Source: Lysobacter sp. HDW10
GTDB lineage: Bacteria; Pseudomonadota; Gammaproteobacteria; Xanthomonadales; Xanthomonadaceae
Length of the DNA: 64,000 nt
Direction of reading: 5' to 3'
Assembly (NCBI RefSeq): GCF_011300685.1
Contig: NZ_CP049864.1
Coordinates: 1,356,885 to 1,420,884 of the forward strand
Part shown: piece after piece, positions 1 through 14,635 of the stretch
Position numbering within the stretch: position 1 is the first letter of the stretch
Layout: every line of letters begins with the position of its first letter
Notes under the pieces: generated by a model
What the model saw: the letters and a program-made list of their open reading frames with translations, nothing else
The model's database searches: none
Told to the model about the DNA's origin: nothing
Made by a program: the position numbers and the translations under genes

Positions 1-162
1 GAACTTACGGGTGAGAACGTCACGGAGTGCACGGGGGGTGCACGTGCTTTGACCGATCACGATTTGGAACGCGATTACCGCTCCACCGTCGATCCACGCT
101 TAAACGATGAGCAGGCATTGGAAATCGCCATGTCGATCGTCCGGAGTCAGAATCCTGCCTGA
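1..162 (+). CDS. Type II DAHP synthase, C-terminal fragment
   Basis: This is the last 53 codons of a gene that starts before the window; frame 1 is open from base 1 to the TGA at 160-162. The peptide begins ELTGENVTECTGGA and continues with a VDPRLNDEQALEIA stretch. These match the conserved end of class II (plant-type) 3-deoxy-D-arabino-heptulosonate-7-phosphate synthases, the first enzyme of the shikimate pathway, which condenses phosphoenolpyruvate and erythrose 4-phosphate. The family match is by recognition of these motifs only. The next gene follows 65 bases later on the same strand and is not obviously related in function. Confidence 0.85.
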   Translation, partial: ELTGENVTECTGGARALTDHDLERDYRSTVDPRLNDEQALEIAMSIVRSQNPA

Positions 163-227
163 TCCCGTTGCGTGGATATCAGTGAGCCCGGGGAGGGGCG
201 AATTGCATCAATAGTTTTTGGAACAAC

Positions 228-1121
228 TTGGCGATGTGGCCGAGCGAACTCGTTGTATGTGTGCTGTTGCTGTATGCCTTTTTGTTGTTGTCGACGGTGT
301 GGGTGTATGCGGCCCGCAAGTCGATTGCGCTAAGAGAAAAGATCATGGCGTGGTGGATTTTCCTGCCCGCTGTGACTTTTGCATTGTTATTCACGGCGGC
401 AGCGGGCTGGGCCCTCTGCGCGATCATCTTGTGCCTTGGGGTGCGAGAGGTGGCGTCGCACTTACGTGCTGATCAAGGACACCCGCGTCTAAGCGATCTT
501 CTTCTGTGCGCAGCATTGTGCATCGCGATTGTTTGGGTCGTCTGGTTTTTTACGTGGGTCGGCGTGCTCGTATTCGCACTCGCGTTTGCCGCCATCTGTT
601 GGCTGTTTGGTCACCCGCATCAGCACACGCGCAGGCGCGCGGCCATGTGCGCACTCGTACTGCTTTCGTCGGGTATGGCTTTCCTGCCCAAGCTGCAAGC
701 ACAACTCGTCGATGACGGTCGATGGGTGCTGTGGCTATGTGCCGTCACGGCGCTGTGCGATGTTGCGCAATATATCGCGGGGACCACGATGGGCAAGCGG
801 CAAGTCACACCTAGTGCGAGTCCGGGGAAAACCTGGGCAGGATGGTTCGGCGGGCTCGTTGTCGCCGTCTGTACCAGCCTCGCATTAGGCGGTGCGCTGT
901 CACTCGCCACATGGCCTCCGTTGCTTGCCTATGGCGTGGCGATTGCGGTCAGCGGATTTATGGGCGACGTGTCGTTTTCAGCCTGCAAGCGAATGTTAGG
1001 CATCAAAGATTTTTCATCGCGCGTGCCCGGGCACGGCGGTGTGTTGGATCGTGTCGACAGTTTGACCTTCACGGCCCCGACGATTTTCATCCTTACTTTC
1101 TTTCAATCTGCGTCCGTTTGA
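228..1121 (+). CDS. CdsA-family phosphatidate cytidylyltransferase (YnbB-like)
   Basis: Polytopic membrane protein of 297 residues, the usual CdsA length, expected to make CDP-diacylglycerol from phosphatidate and CTP. The CdsA signature is complete at about residues 249-277: S-x-C-K-R-x4-K-D-x4-VPGHGG-x-x-DR-x-D. An SPGKTWAG motif lies at 198-205, and a CDVAQYIAG segment sits before it. The start is uncertain: TTG at 228 is the longest option, ATG at 234 is equally likely, and neither has a well-placed ribosome site (the GGGGAGGGG at 190-198 is too far away). The next genes encode a YnbC-like fusion, then YnbA- and YnbD-like proteins on the other strand. It is therefore better seen as the ynbB-type paralogue than as the housekeeping cdsA. 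Confidence 0.9.
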   Translation: MAMWPSELVVCVLLLYAFLLLSTVWVYAARKSIALREKIMAWWIFLPAVTFALLFTAAAGWALCAIILCLGVREVASHLRADQGHPRLSDLLLCAALCIAIVWVVWFFTWVGVLVFALAFAAICWLFGHPHQHTRRRAAMCALVLLSSGMAFLPKLQAQLVDDGRWVLWLCAVTALCDVAQYIAGTTMGKRQVTPSASPGKTWAGWFGGLVVAVCTSLALGGALSLATWPPLLAYGVAIAVSGFMGDVSFSACKRMLGIKDFSSRVPGHGGVLDRVDSLTFTAPTIFILTFFQSASV

Positions 1122-1148
1122 CGCCCCAAACAAGAGTGCATTTCCCCC

Positions 1149-2891
1149 ATGCAACGCCCTTCAATAGAGTCTGATTTCAATACATTCGATCGCATGCGCC
1201 TGTTCTACCGGACATGGAAGCCGGTCGTCGAGCCGTCTGGCAGAGTGCTGATTTTTTTGCACCGCGGACACGAACATTCAGGCCGCGTCGAGTCGCTGGT
1301 TGAACGTATCGCGGGCCCAGGCGACCTGTGCTTTGCATGGGATGCGCGCGGTCATGGCAAGTCGCCGGGTGTTCGGGGTGATGCGCCGGATTTTTATGCG
1401 TTGGTGCGCGACTTGCATGCGTTCGTGCAGCACGTGGTGCAAATGCATGGCGTGAAATTGGAACAGATCTTCATCGTTGCCAACAGCGTTGCTGCGGTCA
1501 CCACTGCGACCTGGCTGCATGACTACGCACCGCAAATTCGCGGCGTAGCGATGGCCGCTGCTGCGTTCTCGATCAAGTTGTATGTGCCGCTTGCCGAGCC
1601 CGCATTGCGTCTTGGGTTGAAAGCGAAGCCGGACCTGAAGGTGACGAGCTACGTTCGACCTTCGATGATCACGCATTCCGAGAAAGAGGCCAAAGCGTAT
1701 GCGTCTGACCCATTGGTGACGCGTGACATTTCCGCACGCGTATTGGTCGACCTTGCCGACACGGCGCGCCGCGTGGTGGCCGATGCGCAGGCAATCGATG
1801 TGCCTGTGTTGATGTTGGTCGCAGGTAAAGACGTCGTGGTTCGCACAGAGCCGCAACGTACGTTCTTCGACGGCCTGTCTTCGACCTTGAAGCAATGGCA
1901 GCTGATACCTGAAAGTCGCCACGCGATTTTTCATGAAGCGGACACCCGTGTCGGAGATGCGGCATGCAAATCGTTTATCGAGGCGTGCTTCAACAGCGAA
2001 GTGCCGAGCGCCGCGCGATTTGTCGATCACGACACGCGAAGCGCGAGTGCGCGTTTGCATGCAACGGTCGCGGCGGGCGTCAAACATCCAAGTTTTTCCA
2101 ATCGCATGCAGCGCGCGATGCTACGTCGCATCGGCCATTTGAGTGACGGCATGCGCATTGGCTTGAAGCAAGGCTTCGATTCGGGTGCGTCTTTGGACTA
2201 TGTCTATAAGAACGAAGCTTCTGGCAAGTTGGGCATCGGCGCATGGTTGGATCGCGGTTATTTGGACGCAACCGGTTGGAAAGGGGTGCGCGTGCGCAAA
2301 GTGCACATGCAGTCTTTGCTCGCGGCACAAATTCGCACGTTCCCGAGTTCGTCTGTGATTCACGTGTTGGATATTGCGGCAGGCTCAGGACGCTACGTGC
2401 TGGAAACCTTGGCGCAATTCAAAGACCGAACATTTGAAGTCGAACTGCGTGACCTCGATCCGAACAACTTGAAAGCCGCAGAAGCCTTGGCGAATTCGCT
2501 GGGCTTGAGCGAGCGCAATCAAATTCGCTATGTGCCGACGGATGCTTTTGCGCCAACGGATGGGAATGCGCCGGATGCGCAATTCGACATTGCGATTGTC
2601 TCAGGGCTGTATGAACTGTTTCCCGAAAATGCGCCGGTCTTGGGATCACTCGAACGGATCGCCAAGCAAGTTCGTCCAGGCGGTGCACTTATTTACACCG
2701 GGCAACCTTGGCATCCGCAACTGCGTCAAATTGCAGAAACCTTGGACAGCCACCGGGGGGGTGCATGGGTGATGCGTCCACGTCCGCAGAACGAACTCGA
2801 TGGTTTGGTCCGCTTGGCGGGCTTTGAGAAGACCGGCTCCGAAGTCGGACCGCAAGGCATCTTTACGGTGTCTGTGGCGCGTCGTGTTTAA
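1149..2891 (+). CDS. Alpha/beta hydrolase - SAM methyltransferase fusion (YnbC-like)
   Basis: A two-domain protein of 580 residues, close to E. coli YnbC in length and build. Residues about 30-290 form an alpha/beta hydrolase: FLHRG near 36-40, WDARGHGKS near 64-72, candidate nucleophile Ser113 in ANSVA, candidate acid Asp228 in GKDVV, and His258 in SRHAIFHE. The nucleophile elbow has Ala where the usual G-x-S-x-G has Gly. Residues about 400-580 are a class I methyltransferase with the SAM-binding motif LDIAAGSGR near 407-415 and an acidic LRDLDPNN stretch. A lipid or lipid head-group substrate is inferred from the CdsA-like gene 27 bases upstream. The 3' end overlaps the convergent phosphatidyltransferase gene by 29 bases. 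Confidence 0.88.
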   Translation: MQRPSIESDFNTFDRMRLFYRTWKPVVEPSGRVLIFLHRGHEHSGRVESLVERIAGPGDLCFAWDARGHGKSPGVRGDAPDFYALVRDLHAFVQHVVQMHGVKLEQIFIVANSVAAVTTATWLHDYAPQIRGVAMAAAAFSIKLYVPLAEPALRLGLKAKPDLKVTSYVRPSMITHSEKEAKAYASDPLVTRDISARVLVDLADTARRVVADAQAIDVPVLMLVAGKDVVVRTEPQRTFFDGLSSTLKQWQLIPESRHAIFHEADTRVGDAACKSFIEACFNSEVPSAARFVDHDTRSASARLHATVAAGVKHPSFSNRMQRAMLRRIGHLSDGMRIGLKQGFDSGASLDYVYKNEASGKLGIGAWLDRGYLDATGWKGVRVRKVHMQSLLAAQIRTFPSSSVIHVLDIAAGSGRYVLETLAQFKDRTFEVELRDLDPNNLKAAEALANSLGLSERNQIRYVPTDAFAPTDGNAPDAQFDIAIVSGLYELFPENAPVLGSLERIAKQVRPGGALIYTGQPWHPQLRQIAETLDSHRGGAWVMRPRPQNELDGLVRLAGFEKTGSEVGPQGIFTVSVARRV

Positions 2892-3477
2892 GACTCGCCC
2901 GGCAGCGATTGAAGAGTGTCCAAACTAGAAGCAACGCGATGACGGCCAAGAGGCCATTGCGCAGGCCGGGCGATACCCCGGCCGCGCACATCAGCGCGAG
3001 TACGGCATAGGCAAACGCGCGATCGCTTTTTCCCATCGGTCCTTGGTGGGCACGCGTCCCGGTGATGGCTTGTGCCAAGACGCCGGTGAACTCCGCGACC
3101 AACGCCAACAAAACGACGCCGAGCGCGAGCGCCGGATGAATGCCGGCCACCCAAATGAAGGGCAGGTAGAGTGCGATATCTGCGAGCACATCACCCAGTT
3201 CGTTGAGCAAGGCACCGAGACGGCTTTCCAAACGCATGCGACGCGCGAGCATGCCGTCGAGCGCGTCCAATGCCATGCGAATCAAGAGCACGGGTGCATA
3301 CAGCGCGAGCACCCAACGTGCGTCGGGCCACAGATACAACGCTGCGCCTTGCACGACGCTGATGAAAAGCGCAGCGCAGGTAATTTGATTCGGCGTAATG
3401 CCGGCAGCTTGCAAACCAGAGAGCAGGGGAGAGAGCAGGCGTTGGAATGCCGGTTTGATGGCGTAAATCGAAATCAT
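2863..3477 (-). CDS. CDP-alcohol phosphatidyltransferase (YnbA-like)
   Basis: Integral membrane enzyme of 204 residues that should transfer a phosphatidyl group from CDP-diacylglycerol to an unknown alcohol. The family motif lies at residues 71-96: D-A-L-D-G-M-L-A-R, eight residues, G88, three residues, N92, three residues, D96, with a further Asp at 100. Asn92 stands where the general motif D-G-x2-A-R-x8-G-x3-D-x3-D has Asp. The start chosen is the ATG at 3477, which overlaps the stop of the upstream phosphatase gene as ATGA and implies translational coupling. Longer reading to 3543 would run deep into that gene. Its partner CdsA-like enzyme is encoded on the opposite strand at 228-1121. Confidence 0.88.
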   Translation of the reverse strand: MISIYAIKPAFQRLLSPLLSGLQAAGITPNQITCAALFISVVQGAALYLWPDARWVLALYAPVLLIRMALDALDGMLARRMRLESRLGALLNELGDVLADIALYLPFIWVAGIHPALALGVVLLALVAEFTGVLAQAITGTRAHQGPMGKSDRAFAYAVLALMCAAGVSPGLRNGLLAVIALLLVWTLFNRCRASLKHDAPQTP

Positions 3478-4715
3478 GAAAGTTCGTCCTGTGGCGCCAA
3501 GGTGCGCGCGACGTGCACGCTTCGCGCAATGCCCATTGCGCAATGCAAATAAATGGTACGGCCTGCCGCGCGCTCGTTCGCCATGATCGCTGAAATGCGT
3601 TCGAGCGCGTGCGGCGGGGGTTCGCGCAGATCTAATAAGGGCACTGCGTAGTAGATCCCCGTTCGTAGTGCTGGCGTTTCTGAAAGCTCTGCAGATAGGT
3701 CGATGACACTACATGACTCGGGCAACAGATGCGTCTCGTGCACGGTAAGCCTGCGACCAACGAGAACATCCGGTTGCCAGTAAGCGAACGGCGGGCGTCT
3801 GTGCGTTCGCGCGCGTTGCAGCGCCCATGTGAGCCAGTAGCCTGCCAACCACGGCGCCAGCATGAGCCATCGCATTAGTGGGACGCGCCCACGCTGCTTG
3901 CGTGCGAGGTCTGCGTCATTGATGGCATAGGCATACGCGACGTAGGCCAACGACAAAGCGACGTATAGGCCGATCCACGCGACGCCAAGATGGATTGCCG
4001 TGTTCAACACCAAGAGCGCGCCCACGAGGTAATGCAAGCTCACGTCAGGCGTCGGGCGCGTCGGGCGGACACACAGAATCACACCTACGGCCAATGCAAC
4101 GCCTGCCAACGCGTCTGCCACGTGATGGCGATGGGTCAACACCGCAGAACATGCCATTAAGCACAGCGCACCGTACGCGAGCGGGCGTTGCCAGTGCTTG
4201 AGATAGGGCACGGCCGTCATCGCCAAGCAGGCGTAGGCCACGTGCAAGGACGGCCATTGATTTCCGCGTCCATCGTATCGATCGAGTGCATGCAACAGCC
4301 GCATGGACACACTGTCGGCGTTTTCGTGCAGCGCAAACGTATTGATCGCAGGGAGTACCGCAAAGCACAGGCCTGCAATCGCGGTAATGCACATCAAGCG
4401 TCTGCTGAAAGTTCTCAGTGGCGCACCCTCCGGTATGAAAGCAAAGCACGCAAACAACACCGGCAAGGAACACACATAGATCCAAACCATCGCGGGCCAT
4501 AACGGCACGACCGCATCCAATGGCAGTGCAAAACGATGCAGCGCATCGATGTCATAGGCATGCAAACGGGCACCGCCGTACGCAATGCAAAACACCACGG
4601 CATTCAACACACCCAAGCGCACGCGACGCGCGGTCGAATCAGACAGGCGTTGCGCAGACGACGAGGCGTGGTGAGAATACGGCATGGGGAGAACGGCAAA
4701 GTACGAACGATGCAT
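3474..4715 (-). CDS. PAP2 phosphatase / dual-specificity phosphatase fusion (YnbD-like)
   Basis: Membrane protein of 413 residues combining a PAP2-type lipid phosphatase with a Cys-based phosphatase. PAP2 motifs are PSLH at 155-158 and HRHHVAD at 195-201, set among several hydrophobic helices. The Cys phosphatase loop H-C-x5-R is at 391-398. Only about 15 residues follow the loop, so the helical tail usual in such domains is missing. The stop overlaps the start of the phosphatidyltransferase gene as ATGA. The start may be ATG 4715 or ATG 4685; both lie inside CATG palindromes that also carry start codons of the divergent patatin-like gene. The likely role is dephosphorylation of a phospholipid intermediate made by the neighbouring enzymes. 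Confidence 0.85.
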   Translation of the reverse strand: MHRSYFAVLPMPYSHHASSSAQRLSDSTARRVRLGVLNAVVFCIAYGGARLHAYDIDALHRFALPLDAVVPLWPAMVWIYVCSLPVLFACFAFIPEGAPLRTFSRRLMCITAIAGLCFAVLPAINTFALHENADSVSMRLLHALDRYDGRGNQWPSLHVAYACLAMTAVPYLKHWQRPLAYGALCLMACSAVLTHRHHVADALAGVALAVGVILCVRPTRPTPDVSLHYLVGALLVLNTAIHLGVAWIGLYVALSLAYVAYAYAINDADLARKQRGRVPLMRWLMLAPWLAGYWLTWALQRARTHRRPPFAYWQPDVLVGRRLTVHETHLLPESCSVIDLSAELSETPALRTGIYYAVPLLDLREPPPHALERISAIMANERAAGRTIYLHCAMGIARSVHVARTLAPQDELS

Positions 4716-5727
4716 GGTAATGGCAGGCGGCGGATTCCGCTTCGGCTATTACCTAGGCATGCACGCCGCAGCAGAAGAACTCGAACGAGCCCCCGACATC
4801 ATCCTCGCTGCCTGCGGCGGCGCCATCGCAGCCGCAGCCATCCACGGACTCCCCGACACCGACACCCGCCGCGACTGGCTCTGCGCCCCCGAGCTCTACA
4901 CCTTCCAACGCAACATCCGCAGCCTCCCCCCCGCCAACGCAAAATTAACGGTGACAGGTACAGTTAATCGGGTGTGGCGGCAGTGGACGCAGCAGGCGGC
5001 GCACCGCGCGGCGCCGGATTTGCTGCGTGATGCGATGTTTGAGTTGCCGGCGCTACCGGTGATTCCGACGGCGCGATCGGGTGGAACAGACATCGCGATC
5101 ATTGCTGCGCGTGTGAGCACCCATGCATCGATGTCGCACTGGCCGTATCAGCTGCATGAGACGGTGTTTGCGCCGAATCGCGTGGCGGGCTTGCTTGCAA
5201 ATCGTGCAAGTTGGGCCAAGCCGTTCTTGAAGTCTGCCATTGCGCCCGCGTTGGAATGCAATACAACGGTGGCCATTGAACATGCAGTGCGTGCTTCGGT
5301 GGCAGATCCTTTTTACTTTGCGAGTGTTCACGCGGAAGGCCAAGACTGGTCTGGTGGGCTCGTTGATTTATTTCCAATCGAAATTGCACATGCACTCGCA
5401 GATCACGTGGTGATGGAGCGCAAGCGAAAGTTCAACCCGCTCTATGCGCAGCCGGCAGTGCGCGCTGTCTATGGCGTGAATGGCAATGCACGACGGCGCG
5501 CCGTGCAAGACAACACACATGCGGATGTTTGGGTGGACACGACCGACGTGTCGCGCGTGCTCCGTCATGAAACGGAACGAAAGCAGTACGATCGCGCCAC
5601 CGGTCAAATTGTTCTGCGTGCCGCGCCAACGCACAGCGAATTCGTCAGGCAAATGACCGCGCAGTGGCACTACGGGCGCGAGCGCACCTTGCGCGCATTT
5701 GAAGCTGCGAACAAGCGCAAGACATGA
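4684..5727 (+). CDS. Patatin-like protein with altered catalytic dyad
   Basis: A 347-residue patatin-fold protein. The glycine-rich oxyanion loop AGGGFRFGYYLG is at residues 14-25. The next block reads DIILAACGGAIAAA (38-51); aligned to the patatin G-x-S-x-G block it puts Cys44 at the serine nucleophile and Ala42 at the first Gly. The second dyad motif, normally DG[GA], reads SGG at 223-225. Classical Ser/Asp phospholipase activity is therefore doubtful; a Cys-based activity or a binding role is possible. Alternative starts are ATG 4714 and 4720. The stop overlaps the SDR gene start as ATGA. Codons 88-95 come from a repeat shared with the prpB upstream region, and codons 14-87 have an extreme C bias. 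Confidence 0.75.
   Translation: MGRTAKYERCMVMAGGGFRFGYYLGMHAAAEELERAPDIILAACGGAIAAAAIHGLPDTDTRRDWLCAPELYTFQRNIRSLPPANAKLTVTGTVNRVWRQWTQQAAHRAAPDLLRDAMFELPALPVIPTARSGGTDIAIIAARVSTHASMSHWPYQLHETVFAPNRVAGLLANRASWAKPFLKSAIAPALECNTTVAIEHAVRASVADPFYFASVHAEGQDWSGGLVDLFPIEIAHALADHVVMERKRKFNPLYAQPAVRAVYGVNGNARRRAVQDNTHADVWVDTTDVSRVLRHETERKQYDRATGQIVLRAAPTHSEFVRQMTAQWHYGRERTLRAFEAANKRKT
4723..4943 (+). other. C-rich tract ending at a repeat
   Basis: In the first 220 bases of the patatin-like gene, third codon positions are mostly C. In bases 4741-4940 I count about 92 C and 44 G on this strand, a G-C skew near -0.35. The tract ends exactly at the repeat at 4944. In the 200 bases after the repeat the count is about 71 G and 52 C, strongest in the first 50 bases. 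The encoded protein stays patatin-like throughout, so the bias is largely synonymous. Confidence 0.75.
4944..4968 (+). repeat. Short repeat, copy 1, inside the patatin-like gene
   Basis: A 25-base unit with the core AACGGTGACAGGTACAG bounded by ATT and TTAAT ends that are partly inverted copies of each other (ATTAAC at the left, GTTAAT at the right). Two further copies lie at 14632-14656 and 14658-14686. It is read in frame here as Leu-Thr-Val-Thr-Gly-Thr-Val-Asn. The design (short, partly palindromic, dispersed) resembles REP-type elements, but no transposase is seen in the window. Confidence 0.8.
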
Positions 5728-6446
5728 AGCGCGTACTCATCATCGGTGGCACACGCGGCATGGGGCTCGGCCTCGCCTGTGCCTATGCGCGCGAAGGTGC
5801 GAATGTTGTCGTGGTTGGACGCGATCCGAGCTGTTTGTCGGATGCAGCGGTCCAGCTAGGGATTAGCGCTCGACAAAGTGATGTCACTGATCCAACGCAG
5901 ATACAAGCTCTAGTGTGCGAAGTGGGGGCCGAAGGTTTGGATCGCGTCATCTACAGTGCGGGCTATTACGCGACCTCTAAGCAGATTCAAAAAGATCACA
6001 GCGCGCTCGAACGCATGCGCGCAAGTAATGTCGCCGGCATCCAACACGTGTTCGACGCGGCGATGCCATTGATGCGTCCATCGGGACGCTTCGCGGCCAT
6101 CGCCTCTATCGCAGGCTTACTTCGCGCCGATCCATGGTCAACAGACTATGCCGCCAGCAAACGTGCAGCCATTGCCTTGTGTGAAGGCTATCGTGTCGTC
6201 GCCGCACTGAAGTCGGTCGGCGTGACCGTCTTGATTCCGGGCTATGTCGATACCGCGCAACTGCGCGCATTGAATGGTGGTTCTGCTGCGCATAAGCCCT
6301 TTCTGGTGAGCGAGGCGCGCGCCGTCAAACGCATGCATGCAGCGCTGGAAAACGGTGAGCCGCGATGTGTCTTCCCTTGGCAACTCCACACGCTGGTGCG
6401 ACTGTACAACCACTTACCCGTGCGCCTACGTGCCCTGCGCGCATAG
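5724..6446 (+). CDS. Short-chain dehydrogenase/reductase
   Basis: A 240-residue NAD(P)-dependent oxidoreductase of the classical SDR type. The cofactor loop GGTRGMGLG is at residues 8-16, a YSAG motif takes the place of NNAG, the catalytic Ser is in IASIAG, and Tyr/Lys are in YAASK near 141-145. The ATG overlaps the stop of the patatin-like gene as ATGA, so the two are probably translated together. The position at the end of the ynb-like cluster suggests reduction or oxidation of a lipid or lipid head-group intermediate, which is inference; the substrate cannot be read from the sequence. Confidence 0.88.
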   Translation: MKRVLIIGGTRGMGLGLACAYAREGANVVVVGRDPSCLSDAAVQLGISARQSDVTDPTQIQALVCEVGAEGLDRVIYSAGYYATSKQIQKDHSALERMRASNVAGIQHVFDAAMPLMRPSGRFAAIASIAGLLRADPWSTDYAASKRAAIALCEGYRVVAALKSVGVTVLIPGYVDTAQLRALNGGSAAHKPFLVSEARAVKRMHAALENGEPRCVFPWQLHTLVRLYNHLPVRLRALRA

Positions 6447-6474
6447 AATCAGATATCTCTTCAGGGGGTTGATC

Positions 6475-7542
6475 ATGCGTCGTCGATTTGTCCGTTCTCT
6501 TCGTTTGCCGATGCCTGTCTTGGCGTGTGGCTTGATGTTGGCTTTCGGTGCTGTTGCCGCTGTATCCGCGCAAGACGCGCCAGCACCTCTGACCTCCAGT
6601 CAAACCACGCAGGTACGTTTGCGCGGCTTGTCTGCAGTGAATGATCAATTGGCCTGGGCATCAGGCGTCAAAGGCACGGTCATTCGCACCAGCGACGGCG
6701 GCACGACGTGGCAAAACGTGTCCGTCCCGAACACCGACGCACTCGACTTCCGTGACATCCAAGCCTTCTCTGCGGACGAGGCGATTGTCTTGGCAGCAGG
6801 CCCCGGGCAAAGCTCTAAGCTCTATCGCACCGTCGATGGCGGCGCCACGTGGACCTTGGTATTACAAAATCTAGCGGCCGATGGCTTTTACGACTGCATG
6901 GTGTTCGAAGGTGATCACGGTTGGATGATGGGCGATCCGATCGAAGGCCGTTATCAAATCTTTGAATCGCGTGATCGCGGCGCGCATTGGGCGCAATCGG
7001 CGAATGGTACGCCGGCAGCAAAAGACGAAGCCGCCTTTGCCGCAAGCGGCACCTGTATTGCACGCAATCGCAACAGCACCTTCGTCGCGACTGGCGGCGC
7101 GCAAGCCAATCTGCATATGAAGGTAGACGGCATGGGTGTATGGCAAAAGTTCGATAGCGGTATGGGACGCGCGGTGAGCTCGGCAGGTGTGTTCAGTGCT
7201 GCGCCTATGGGTGAGCGCATGATGCTCGTCGGCGGCGACTACAAGCTGGAAAAACAACCTGGCAACGCGGCGATCTATTCGAACGGCAAGTTGAAAGCCA
7301 TCCCGGCACCGCCCGGCTATCGCTCTGGCGTGGCGTGCTTTGCCGACGGCGAACGCTGCGTTGCCGTCGGGCCGAGCGGCGCAGATGTGTGGGATGGCAA
7401 AGGCTGGCGAAGCGTCAGCACTGAATCTTGGGACACGGTGGCGATTGCAGGTGATTCCGCGTGGATGAGTGGTGTCAAAGGACGCGTGGCGCGAATTGAG
7501 CAACTCAATGCCACCCCGCGTGCAGGTGACGCCACGCCATGA
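6475..7542 (+). CDS. Exported YCF48/BNR-repeat protein
   Basis: A 355-residue beta-propeller protein related to the photosystem II assembly factor YCF48 and to BNR/sialidase-like repeat proteins. A signal peptide covers about residues 1-33 (hydrophobic core, then AVSA before QDAPAP). Asp-box repeats are visible as SDGGTTW, VDGGATW and RDRGAHW. The ATG at 6475 is chosen because a purine-rich CAGGGGG lies 6 bases upstream and the signal peptide follows directly; the frame remains open further upstream into the SDR gene. The function in heterotrophic proteobacteria is unknown. The stop overlaps the start of the next small gene as ATGA. Confidence 0.82.
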   Translation: MRRRFVRSLRLPMPVLACGLMLAFGAVAAVSAQDAPAPLTSSQTTQVRLRGLSAVNDQLAWASGVKGTVIRTSDGGTTWQNVSVPNTDALDFRDIQAFSADEAIVLAAGPGQSSKLYRTVDGGATWTLVLQNLAADGFYDCMVFEGDHGWMMGDPIEGRYQIFESRDRGAHWAQSANGTPAAKDEAAFAASGTCIARNRNSTFVATGGAQANLHMKVDGMGVWQKFDSGMGRAVSSAGVFSAAPMGERMMLVGGDYKLEKQPGNAAIYSNGKLKAIPAPPGYRSGVACFADGERCVAVGPSGADVWDGKGWRSVSTESWDTVAIAGDSAWMSGVKGRVARIEQLNATPRAGDATP

Positions 7543-11717: not shown

Positions 11718-11771
11718 ACAAGCGTTCGTGGTAAAATTTCGGGCTCCACCGATCCGTTGAAGAGAAGCGAA

Positions 11772-12971
11772 ATGCCTGATTTTTCCAGTCGTATGGACCG
11801 CGCCAAACCCAGCGCCATCATGGCCGTTGCGGAGAAGGCCAAAGCGTTGAAAGCGGCCGGCAAAGACATCATCAGCTTCTCTATCGGTGTGCCGAACTTC
11901 CTGCCTGGCGACCACGTATACGCCGCCGCGCGCGATGCCTTGTCGCATGATTCGGGACAGTACGGAAGCAACCGTGGTGCACCGGCTTTGATTGAAGCCT
12001 TCCTAAAGCACATCGCCGAAATCGGTTTGACAGGCTATACCGCGAAAAATGTCGCCACCGGTATCGGTGCGAAGCACGTGATCTACAACCTGTGTGAAGC
12101 CTTGTTGGATGAAGGCGACACGATTGCGTTTCCGACGCCGTACTGGACAAGCTACGTCGACATCGCCGAAATTCTCAATGCGAAGATCGATCTGTTGCCG
12201 TGTCCGGCATCGCAGCACTACAAGATGTCGCCGGCACAACTTGATGCCGCACTCGCAAAGAAGCCGCGCGTGTTCTTGTTCAACAATCCGTCGAACCCGA
12301 CCGGCATGGTGTACAGCAAGGACGAAATTTCTGCATTGGCAGATGTGATTGCGAAGTATCCGGACACCTGGATCATCACCGACGATATTTACAACCGCAT
12401 GATTTTTGATGGCAACGGTTATCACAACTTCGTGCATGCGCGTCCGGAATTGAAGGATCGCGTGATTTTCATCGATTCCTTGTCCAAGACGTACGGCATG
12501 CCGGGTTGGCGCGTGGGTTTCATGGCGGGACCGGAATCGGTTGCCAACGCGGTGACTACGATGAACTCCAATCACATCACCAACTTGCCGGAAATCACTA
12601 CGGCGGCGGCGATCGCAGCACTGTCGGGTCCGCAAGATGTCCCGAATGCAAAAGTGCGCGAGTTCCAAGAGAAACGTGATCTTGTGATGGCTGTGCTTGA
12701 TGCCGTTCCCGGTGTGGTCTGCCCGAAACCGGAGGGCGCGTTCTACGTGTTCCCGGATATCAGTGCGTACTACGGCAAGTCGCACGAAGGCAAAGTCATT
12801 CAAAACGACATCGAATTCTGCAGTGCACTGCTGGAGTCTAAGGGCGTCGCTTGCGTACCGGGTTCGGCCTTTGGTGAGCCCAATGCCATGCGCATCAGTT
12901 ACACCTGCCCGACGCCGCAATTGGCGCCCGGTATGGAGCGCATCAAAGCGTTCTTCGCTGAAATGCAGTGA
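11772..12971 (+). CDS. aspC: Class I PLP aminotransferase, aspartate aminotransferase type
   Basis: A 399-residue fold-type I aminotransferase, most like aspartate aminotransferase subgroup I-alpha, which interconverts aspartate/2-oxoglutarate and oxaloacetate/glutamate. Visible features are NNPSNPTGMVYS, DDIYNRM with the PLP-binding Asp/Tyr region, and the Schiff-base Lys in SLSKTYGMPGWRVGF. The start is ATG 11772 preceded by GAAGAGAAGCG; the TTG at 11757 would add five residues. The gene lies directly before mdh, which interconverts malate and oxaloacetate. The exact substrate among aspartate, tyrosine and similar amino acids is not certain. Confidence 0.85.
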   Translation: MPDFSSRMDRAKPSAIMAVAEKAKALKAAGKDIISFSIGVPNFLPGDHVYAAARDALSHDSGQYGSNRGAPALIEAFLKHIAEIGLTGYTAKNVATGIGAKHVIYNLCEALLDEGDTIAFPTPYWTSYVDIAEILNAKIDLLPCPASQHYKMSPAQLDAALAKKPRVFLFNNPSNPTGMVYSKDEISALADVIAKYPDTWIITDDIYNRMIFDGNGYHNFVHARPELKDRVIFIDSLSKTYGMPGWRVGFMAGPESVANAVTTMNSNHITNLPEITTAAAIAALSGPQDVPNAKVREFQEKRDLVMAVLDAVPGVVCPKPEGAFYVFPDISAYYGKSHEGKVIQNDIEFCSALLESKGVACVPGSAFGEPNAMRISYTCPTPQLAPGMERIKAFFAEMQ

Positions 12972-13004
12972 TTCAATTCATCTAAAAACATTCGGAGTGA
13001 TCCC

Positions 13005-13988
13005 ATGAAACAACCCGTCCGCGTTGCTGTTACCGGCGCAGCTGGTCAAATCGGCTATGCACTTTTGTTCCGCATCGCTTCCGGTGAAATGCTTGGCAAA
13101 GACCAGCCGGTCATCTTGCAAATGCTTGAGTTGCCGATGGAAAAGGCACAAGCCGCGCTCAATGGCGTGATGATGGAACTTGAAGATTGCGCGTTCCCGC
13201 TGTTGGCCGGCATGGTCGGCACCTCGGATCCGGAAGTGGCGTTCAAGGACGCGGACTACGCTTTGTTGGTTGGCGCGATGCCGCGCGGCCCGGGCATGGA
13301 ACGCAAAGATCTTCTGCTGAAGAATGCGGAAATTTTCACCGTTCAAGGTAAGGCTTTGAACAAGGTCGCGAGCCGCAACGTGAAGGTGCTTGTTGTCGGT
13401 AATCCGGCGAACACCAACGCGTACATCGCCATGAAGTCGGCGCCGGATCTGCCGTCAAAGAACTTCACCGCCATGTTGCGTCTCGATCACAACCGTGCGT
13501 TGTCGCAATTGGCGAACAAAGCGGAAGTGCCGGTCGATGCCATCAAGAAGTTGGTCGTGTGGGGTAACCACAGCCCGACCATGTATCCCGACTACCGTTT
13601 CGCGACGGTCGAAGGCGCGTCCTTGAAGGACAAGATTGACGACGCCGCATGGAACGCCAATCAGTTCATTCCGAATGTGGGCAAGCGTGGCGCGGCGATC
13701 ATTGAAGCGCGCGGTTTGTCTTCTGCAGCATCGGCGGCGAATGCCGCGATTGACCACATGCATGACTGGGCCTTGGGCACGAATGGCGAATGGGCCACGA
13801 TGGGCGTGCCGAGCGATGGTAGCTATGGCATTCCGGAAGGCGTGATTTATGGCGTGCCGGTGACGTGCGCCAATGGCGAATACACCGTGATTAAAGATTT
13901 GCCGATCGACGACTTCAGCCGTGCAGCCATGGACAAGACCTTGGCTGAGCTGGAAGAAGAACGCGCTGGCGTCGCACACCTTCTGTAA
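13005..13988 (+). CDS. mdh: Malate dehydrogenase
   Basis: A 327-residue NAD-dependent malate dehydrogenase of the tricarboxylic acid cycle. The nucleotide loop TGAAGQIGY is at about residues 10-18, the mobile loop with substrate arginines is [13 protein letters not shown], the next substrate Arg is in LDHNRA, and the catalytic His is in [11 protein letters not shown]. Length and motif order fit the cytosolic-type MDH common in Xanthomonadaceae. The ATG follows CGGAG by 6 bases. It starts 33 bases after the aminotransferase stop and may share its transcript. Confidence 0.96.
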
Positions 13989-14008
13989 GCGAGTTGCTGG
14001 CGTCAGTA

Positions 14009-14635
14009 ATGGCGCCAAGCTCTGAAATGATGCGACCCCTCCATGAAGACCGTCATTTCCTGATCTTCTCCAAGCCCCCGGGACTGCTTTCAGTGCCGGG
14101 GCGCGGTGAAGATAAACAAGATTGTTTGATTCATCGCATCCAGTGCCTGTGGCCGGATGCGCTGACTGTGCATCGCTTGGATCAAGTCACCAGTGGCGTG
14201 ATGGTCTTCGCGCGCAGTCCCGAAATACACCGCGCACTCAGTGACGCCTTCGCCACACGCCGCGTACAAAAAACCTACGAAGCTTTAGTTGAAGGCGAAC
14301 TGCGGGATGACAGCGGCACCATCGATTTGCCGCTCATTTGCGACTGGCCGAATCGCCCACGCCAAATCGTCGCGCATGCAATCGGCAAACCTGCTCAAAC
14401 GCACTGGACCGTGCTCTCTCGCCACACCAACCACACCCGCGTAGCCCTGGAGCCCCTCACGGGCCGCACACACCAACTACGCGTCCACATGCAGGCACTG
14501 GGCCACCCCATCATCGGCGACGTCTTCTACGACGCTCTGCCTGCGCCACGCGTCATGCTGCACGCCCGCGCACTCACCTTCCATCACCCCGCCACACAAG
14601 AACACCTCACCTTCCAAGACCCCACCCCCTTTTAA
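14009..14635 (+). CDS. RluA-family pseudouridine synthase
   Basis: A 208-residue RNA pseudouridine synthase of the RluA type. The catalytic Asp is in HRLDQVTSG, and the later motifs TGRTHQLRVHM and HPIIGDVFY are present. Size and lack of an S4 domain suggest an RluA-like enzyme acting on 23S rRNA and/or tRNA, but the target site cannot be assigned. TTG 13994 would add five residues; the ATG at 14009 is preferred. The last 240 bases are extremely C-rich, with 111 C to 44 G over 14401-14640, and the stop TAA lies inside the repeat at 14632. Confidence 0.9.
   Translation: MAPSSEMMRPLHEDRHFLIFSKPPGLLSVPGRGEDKQDCLIHRIQCLWPDALTVHRLDQVTSGVMVFARSPEIHRALSDAFATRRVQKTYEALVEGELRDDSGTIDLPLICDWPNRPRQIVAHAIGKPAQTHWTVLSRHTNHTRVALEPLTGRTHQLRVHMQALGHPIIGDVFYDALPAPRVMLHARALTFHHPATQEHLTFQDPTPF
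14390..14631 (+). other. C-rich tract ending at a repeat pair
   Basis: The 3' third of the pseudouridine synthase gene uses C almost throughout at third codon positions (G-C skew near -0.43 over 14401-14640), while the same gene upstream of about 14340 looks normal. The tract ends at the repeat pair at 14632-14686. The short region after the pair (14687-14715) is G-rich. This mirrors the pattern around the repeat at 4944. Confidence 0.75.

Follow-up and report, generated by a model that had tools for sequence, protein, structure and literature searches.

What do the ynb genes make, and which genes form the core of the locus? The genes ynbABCD are orphan 'y-genes' of E. coli. A locus of this kind occupies positions 228-6446 of a 64,000-nucleotide stretch of Lysobacter sp. 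HDW10 (contig NZ_CP049864.1), here called the window, where homologues of ynbB, ynbC, ynbA and ynbD are followed by genes for a patatin-fold protein (PAT) and a short-chain dehydrogenase/reductase (SDR). We label the six-gene lineage to which it belongs "type II" and the other ynb loci "canonical"; the type II lineage is what is new here, and it tells which genes form the core. Gene content, order, linkage, homology, residues and fold class were observed, as was the difference in gene content between the two lineages. From these we read the type II locus as a dedicated, non-housekeeping membrane-lipid pathway and a second deep ynb lineage, with a probability of about 0.5. The six genes are as follows.

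228-1121, plus strand: ynbB homologue, CdsA-like cytidylyltransferase, 297 aa (Pfam CTP_transf_1, E 1.5e-49)
1149-2891, plus strand: ynbC homologue, monoacylglycerol-lipase-like hydrolase fused to an S-adenosylmethionine (SAM) methyltransferase, 580 aa (Pfam Hydrolase_4, 5.5e-59; Methyltransf_20, 3e-93)
2863-3477, minus strand: ynbA homologue, CDP-alcohol phosphatidyltransferase family, 204 aa (Pfam CDP-OH_P_transf, E 7.4e-12)
3474-4715, minus strand: ynbD homologue, PAP2_3 membrane domain and a short C-terminal HCxxGxxR phosphatase-like part, 413 aa (Pfam PAP2_3, 2.7e-10; also PAP2)
4684-5727, plus strand: PAT, patatin-fold protein whose nucleophile position holds Cys, 347 aa (Pfam Patatin, 8.9e-12)
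5724-6446, plus strand: SDR oxidoreductase, 240 aa (Pfam adh_short, E 6.6e-27)

Layout and recurrence of the six genes

All six reading frames are open and run in the order ynbB and ynbC (forward), ynbA and ynbD (reverse), PAT and SDR (forward). The tails of ynbC and ynbA overlap by 29 bp (2863-2891), ynbD and ynbA by 4 bp (3474-3477), and the PAT stop and SDR start share an ATGA (5724-5727). The initial annotation of this DNA had described these frames, their positions and their layout down to the ATGA join, and all were found as it gave them. Alternative starts exist for ynbB (ATG at 234 instead of TTG at 228) and ynbD (4685 instead of 4715), and the PAT start at 4684 is backed by a leader common to its relatives (KYxxC[ML]V-like). 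Assignment of the first four genes to the ynbBCAD type by domains and lengths agrees with the Pfam matches and with tblastn against E. coli K-12 ynbABCD (b1408-b1411, NC_000913). The E. coli YnbB, YnbC, YnbA and YnbD are 298, 585, 201 and 430 aa long, compared with 297, 580, 204 and 413 aa in the window; identity is 44% for A, 42% for C and 25% for D over most of their length, and 50% over 115 C-terminal residues for YnbB. All four families are adjacent in the window, but they do not form a single-strand operon as in E. coli, where the genes lie on one strand in the order A-B-C-D and PAT, SDR and a PlsC-like gene are absent. The split onto two strands that had been pointed out earlier is real, with its convergent pairs; it is, however, the usual layout of its own lineage rather than a peculiarity of this genome. 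A rearrangement private to HDW10 was ruled out, the layout being common to other loci.

Relatives were collected by a YnbC-alignment scan of named genomes, which leans to the window's own lineage and from which the best 80 of 570 confirmed loci were used. Among these 80, the nine closest full loci (L027-L035; hosts Rhodoferax, Undibacterium, Duganella, Massilia and Pseudoduganella) match the window in all six genes, their order and their orientation, with YnbC identities of 53-57%. Ten further loci (L173-L182), from the Burkholderiales family of the L028 genome, also hold all six genes, and nine of them keep the order; PAT and SDR are swapped in L178, and PAT is split into two frames in L182. 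The six genes thus stand together in 19 other loci of distantly related bacteria, in 18 of them in the same order and in one with PAT and SDR swapped, and because of this recurrence the type II gene set is more than chance, which suggests that the six genes work together. Flanking genes are common only to some close relatives (for example, L031, L032 and L035, or L033 and L034) and never to the window. In a gammaproteobacterial metagenome-assembled genome (MAG), B and C lie near a contig end (L036) and the other four genes (SDR-PAT-D-A) on another contig (L141), with one stop inside the YnbA match.

Phylogeny separates the two lineages. In the YnbC tree (45 rows), the window, the type II rows and L036 fall on one side of a branch with 100/100 support and E. 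coli YnbC on the opposite side, and a concatenated B+C+A+D tree (29 rows) gives the same split, again at 100/100.

The lineages also differ in gene content. The canonical set comprised 71 stretches (L037-L106 and E. coli), some of them cut by contig ends; it includes Stenotrophomonas, Xanthomonas, Pseudomonas, Burkholderia and others, which share the four families and, with few exceptions, the same tested residues. Judged by eye, their commonest gene order is A-C-D-B and not simply ynbABCD. A PlsC-like acyltransferase gene (Pfam PF01553 in both of the two members scanned) occurs in 62 of the 71 stretches, with a median position between D and B. When 11 of the 62 members were used as tblastn queries, neither the 64-kb window nor any of 21 type II stretches gave a match. 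Conversely, the 70 named canonical loci gave no PAT match and an SDR match in L098 only. Type II loci therefore have PAT and SDR beside the cluster where most canonical loci carry the PlsC-like gene. The two kinds of loci are a natural pair for comparative lipidomics, and Duganella, Undibacterium and Massilia are harmless hosts in which the ynb product could be looked for. The exceptional locus L098 (8976-17920, from a MAG) has B reverse, C forward and A reverse, with the SDR match (33%) about 4 kb further on, possibly a third layout.

Linkage was quantified in 245 genomes of one Burkholderiales family, that of the L028 genome. In this and the order and class samples described below, PAT scoring covered, in most genomes, the best 5-8 first-look candidates. 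Strong Methyltransf_20 matches were found in 30 of the 245 genomes, 13 of them canonical-type (441-520 bits) and 17 type II (312-355 bits; the window's own YnbC scores 315); three further matches were weak. Strong PAT matches (E below 1e-90) occurred in 46 genomes, and weak, mostly partial ones in 71 more (117 in total). All 17 type II genomes had a strong PAT on the YnbC contig, with 1.8-2.8 kb between the matches, compared with none of the 13 genomes with a canonical YnbC. For three of the 17 (G690, G848 and G854), only the positions of C and PAT are known, and linkage of the SDR is based on the 19 opened loci, not on these counts. A strong PAT without a strong YnbC was present in 29 genomes, in all of which YnbA was weak (29/29; positive controls strong in 4/4). 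The ynb core is thus accompanied by PAT, whereas PAT also occurs in genomes that do not have the core.

In the window's own order, Methyltransf_20 was above the cut-off in 20 of 250 genomes including the window's, and the YnbC was of canonical type in 19 (477-517 bits). A strong PAT was found in a single one of these 250 genomes, the window's own, with weak partial matches in three others; in a class-wide sample the count was 1 of 369, again the window's own, with two weak partial matches. The co-occurrence of the six families, for which the initial annotation had proposed a search in Lysobacterales, therefore holds in Burkholderiales, but not in Lysobacterales. Genomes of the window's own family carry ynb DNA that is 78-100% identical to named Stenotrophomonas, Xanthomonas and Lysobacter loci, in one case 100% to S. 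geniculata over 3927 bases; this identifies the family as Lysobacteraceae and agrees with the order given by the initial annotation.

The four Ynb proteins

Residue counts were made after rows covering <60% of the query had been dropped, leaving 90 rows for A, 86 for B, 92 for C, 83 for D and 51 for PAT; L182, with its split PAT, was dropped in this way. CDP-diacylglycerol synthases of the CdsA type carry the motifs SPxKT and GHGGxxDRxDS. YnbB of the window keeps both (SPxKT and GHGGxLDRxDS) and scores below the NCBIfam CdsA-type equivalog cut-off (86 of 385 bits). The genome has one other CTP_transf_1 gene (C1:59188-60024), which is likely the housekeeping CdsA. In the available portion of PMC6362211, E. 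coli YnbB is described as non-essential and, even when overproduced, as no substitute for CdsA (data not shown there).

The same portion of that paper reports that YnbB overproduction raised MPIase, which raises the possibility that the locus serves to make or adjust an MPIase-like glycolipid (a sugar-PP-diacylglycerol), with YnbB coupling CTP and phosphatidate to a sugar phosphate. Although the failure of YnbB to replace CdsA would also fit, deletion of ynbB alone gave no significant change in MPIase (PMC6362211, same portion). Moreover, the conserved type II block consists of the six genes only, none of them glycosyltransferase-like by Pfam, and YnbA resembles a different kind of enzyme, the phosphatidylinositol-phosphate (PIP) synthases. 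We consider a glycolipid of this kind improbable.

The best PDB sequence match of the YnbA family profile was M. tuberculosis PIP synthase PgsA1 (6h53, E 9.9e-14); NCBIfam matches were below the curated cut-offs. As given in the accessible part of PMC6506517, class I CDP-alcohol phosphotransferases have the signature D1xxD2G1xxAR..G2xxxD3xxxD4, and the four Asp bind two metals in PgsA1. Homology of the window's YnbA to this family is clear by Pfam, and it departs from the signature at D3, which is Asn92, though it may still act as an enzyme of this class. Asn stands at D3 in 90/90 rows and at D1 in 89, that of E. coli included (L005, 4622-5227), the window being the sole row with Asp at D1. 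D2 and D4 are kept in all 90 rows, and AR is kept in the window. The Asn-substituted YnbA proteins would offer a test of the minimum number of Asp for the metal site of a CDP-alcohol transferase.

The acceptor site of YnbA is conserved in part. Lys150 and Arg153 are kept in 90/90 rows and Arg191 in all 76 rows that reach it; they align with R152, R155 and R195 of PgsA1, whose roles are described in the part of PMC6506517 available. The phosphate-binding Arg/Lys residues are accordingly common to YnbA and the PIP synthases PgsA1 and R. salmoninarum PIPS (5d92), whereas the Asn at D1 and D3 sets YnbA apart from them. In a PgsA1-guided alignment, the pocket residues S132 and K135 are not kept. 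PgsA1 R94, stated in the same part of PMC6506517 to be kept in users of inositol phosphate, has Arg at its place in only 5 of 90 YnbA rows and Val97 in the window, unlike in a PIP synthase, and no match to myo-inositol-1-phosphate synthase was found in the window's genome. Because the phosphate-binding residues are kept, R94 is mostly absent and the synthase gave no match, we infer from these alignments that the acceptor would be phosphorylated and other than inositol phosphate. An inositol lipid, considered as a product, is unlikely on the last two grounds.

In YnbD, HxxxD and CxxGxxR are present in 83/83 rows and PSLH in all but one. The E. coli protein has a longer C-terminus, whereas type II rows end soon after the CxxGxxR loop. 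According to the part of PMC7413402 at hand, E. coli YnbD has no ascribed function and did not complement strains lacking phosphatidylglycerophosphate (PGP) or undecaprenyl-pyrophosphate (C55-PP) phosphatases. The failure of YnbB to replace CdsA and of YnbD to complement these losses is consistent with other substrates. The CDP-diacylglycerol scheme that the initial annotation had drawn up, if taken with housekeeping substrates, fails in that form, given the non-complementation by YnbB and YnbD recorded in those portions of the two papers; the Asn residues of YnbA weaken the scheme too.

In the hydrolase part of YnbC, Ser113, Asp228 and His258 are kept in 92/92 rows, and its PDB sequence matches are mainly monoacylglycerol lipases. 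The model of the methyltransferase part had a pLDDT of 90.7, and its best solved match was 3ocj (Z 23.9, root mean square deviation (rmsd) 3.2, 248 aligned). No methyltransferase substrate could be read from the fold, since 3ocj carries no description beyond "possible exported protein" and is followed by mixed methyltransferases at Z 16-17.5. The 3ocj entry, from Bordetella parapertussis, matches window positions 1968-2888, and the next row stands at Z 17.5.

These features also fit a locus that breaks down or remodels lipids, in which the YnbC lipase-like domain, YnbD and PAT would salvage damaged or foreign lipids and YnbB and YnbA would re-prime the released phosphatidate. The lipase-like hydrolase with its three catalytic residues kept, the phosphatase-type domains of YnbD and the patatin fold are what such a function would use. 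However, the pairing of a CDP-diacylglycerol synthase-like gene with a phosphatidyltransferase-like gene points to synthesis, most canonical loci carry the acyl-adding PlsC-like gene, and PAT is without the hydrolytic Ser-Asp dyad, as described below. We consider breakdown or remodeling unlikely.

PAT, SDR and the proposed pathway

Patatin-like phospholipases are characterized by a GxSxG nucleophile and a DG[GA] Asp. PAT matched Pfam Patatin in 10/10 rows of the alignment scanned, and a model built from this 10-row alignment (mean pLDDT 75.4, pTM 0.80) has a patatin fold. Its closest solved folds were PlpD (Z 17.5, rmsd 4.3, 229 aligned), CapV (15.7), CapE (15.5), VipD (15.4) and patatin (14.0); Foldseek TM-scores were moderate, at 0.31-0.47 by query length (21 matches, E up to 0.001). 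These five proteins share the fold, the GGG stretch and the nucleophile elbow with PAT at 11-19% identity. They differ from it in that PAT has Cys at the elbow and no fixed Asp before GG. The nucleophile place is Cys instead of Ser in 51/51 rows (Cys44, codon 4813-4815), and the usual Asp place is variable, with an invariant Asp five residues on in 51/51 rows (Asp228, codon 5365-5367); in the shorter numbering these residues are Cys34 and Asp218. PAT is thus patatin-like in modeled fold and departs from GxSxG and DG[GA]. The leader CMVMAGGG holds a further Cys (Cys10), kept in 49/49 frames matched. Members of the PAT family come from the window, L027-L035 and L140-L182. A patatin-like protein had been counted earlier as a lipid step; with the Ser-Asp dyad gone and solitary PAT in 29 genomes, lipid hydrolysis cannot be assumed.

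As a control, the five loci L108-L112, whose patatin matches are weak, were checked: Ser is present in four, and the pattern was not matched in the fifth. When other patatin-like frames of the fetched loci were scanned by pattern, Ser was seen in 11 and Cys in two, the latter perhaps by chance; because of these two frames, the Cys elbow is not demonstrated as unique to the PAT family. No recognizable report of a cysteine patatin was found among the papers listed in the literature search. A working cysteine patatin, if true, would widen the catalytic residues of a large family that is usually recognized by its Ser-Asp pair. PAT was also considered as an anti-phage patatin effector and gave no PADLOC match, though CapV and CapE are patatin-fold effectors; D gave no PADLOC match either, and the match of C to mad2 (E 1.2e-9) is confined to the methyltransferase part.

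It is quite possible, though we lean to the other side, that PAT, and perhaps SDR, is no pathway step and that a non-catalytic or independent patatin stands beside ynb for regulation or by history. This would account for the Cys and the lack of a fixed Asp at the usual place in 51/51 rows, for the 29 genomes that have PAT and neither YnbC nor YnbA, for the intermixing of clustered and solitary PATs in the PAT tree (51 rows) and for the split PAT of L182. Set against it are the 17/17 type II genomes of the family sample that keep PAT near YnbC, and the invariant Cys, displaced Asp and GGG stretch, which suggest a chemistry under selection. The neighborhoods of solitary PAT, inspected by eye in 31 stretches with no family search, showed no theme among recurring neighbors.

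Classical SDR proteins have the residues N-S-Y-K. Asn102, Ser128, Tyr142 and Lys146 of the cluster SDR are kept in 21/21 type II rows, as in a classical SDR; one SDR of L036 that lies outside the cluster was left out of this count from the set of 22.

For the dedicated lipid pathway that we favor, the catalytic steps, their order and the product are all deduced from these families and may be pictured as follows. YnbB would make CDP-diacylglycerol for local use, and YnbA would transfer its phosphatidyl group to a small alcohol that bears a phosphate. From the resulting phosphatidyl-X-phosphate, the phosphatase-like part of YnbD may then remove the phosphate, the PAP2 domain of YnbD also acting on a lipid phosphate. 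The two domains of YnbC would trim an acyl ester and methylate the head group or product. The most likely role of PAT would be acyl exchange by way of an acyl thioester on Cys44, and that of SDR the reduction of a keto group. A dedicated route to an unusual phospholipid had been proposed in the initial annotation; the six genes do form a unit by linkage, and the methylation, dephosphorylation and redox steps are predicted ones. A narrower version, that type II makes a methylated phospholipid with an undescribed head group through a cysteine-patatin acyltransferase (Cys44 and the displaced Asp228, in the role of PlsC) and a YnbA with an Asn metal site, is speculative, and we would not expect it to hold in full.

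Several points weigh against a biosynthetic pathway of this kind. Of its four signature Asp, YnbA retains three in the window and two elsewhere, so that its predicted activity is not assured. In the window's YnbD the C-terminus is short, and DSPc scores under the Pfam cut-off (17.6 of 33.5 bits). Poor expression or inactive proteins might equally lie behind the negative complementation results in E. coli. With hydrolase-like proteins so prominent in the locus, breakdown or remodeling fits too. The patatin fold of PAT is known from a model (mean pLDDT 75), and the PAT profile found no match among solved structures by sequence at E up to 1; PAT, present in 29 genomes that have neither YnbC nor YnbA, may be unrelated to the pathway. 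Finally, no report of a ynb product, mutant lipidome or assay was found among the papers listed in the literature search, which covered mostly open journals and no preprints. The papers listed for the lipidomes of the host genera held nothing useful.

Probable acquisition and surroundings of the locus

The congener G054 (locus L184) has flanking matches that are collinear with those of the window, at 11728-13062 and 13166-14077. The left flank gene is 73% and the right flank gene 52% identical, and the gap between them is about 0.1 kb compared with 6.3 kb in the window, which defines one further feature:

163-6471, no strand: stretch without a counterpart in the congener G054 (collinear flanks in L184)

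The six-gene set was likely gained in the window's line, the direction being chosen because the cluster is rare in the window's order; a single congener was compared, and loss is possible too. Taken as a whole, the type II locus is probably a compact gene set that has moved horizontally. In the concatenated tree, the window sits on a long branch (1.35 changes per column) beside L030 and two relatives, a placement that is unsure (94/92). In the PAT tree it falls inside a set of ten clustered PATs (98/99), again on a very long branch and with unsure placement. The G+C content of the cluster (58.8%) and of the window (57.1%) is similar, and composition therefore gives no sign of recent transfer.

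The long end branches of the window proteins and the presence of a strong PAT in one of 250 genomes of the order would be expected of an inert cassette, that is, a horizontally acquired set no longer used in the window's genome. Such a fate is very improbable here, since the six frames are all open, the tested catalytic residues are kept and the G+C content does not point to a recent arrival.

Scans for promoters and terminators yielded fewer matches than did shuffled sequences. Among repeats of at least 16 nt in window positions 1-7200, none evidently pairs both cluster ends; tRNA and integrase genes were not searched for. The next gene to the right of the cluster (6472-7542) encodes a YCF48-like protein (Pfam PSII_BNR) and delimits on the right the stretch that the congener lacks.

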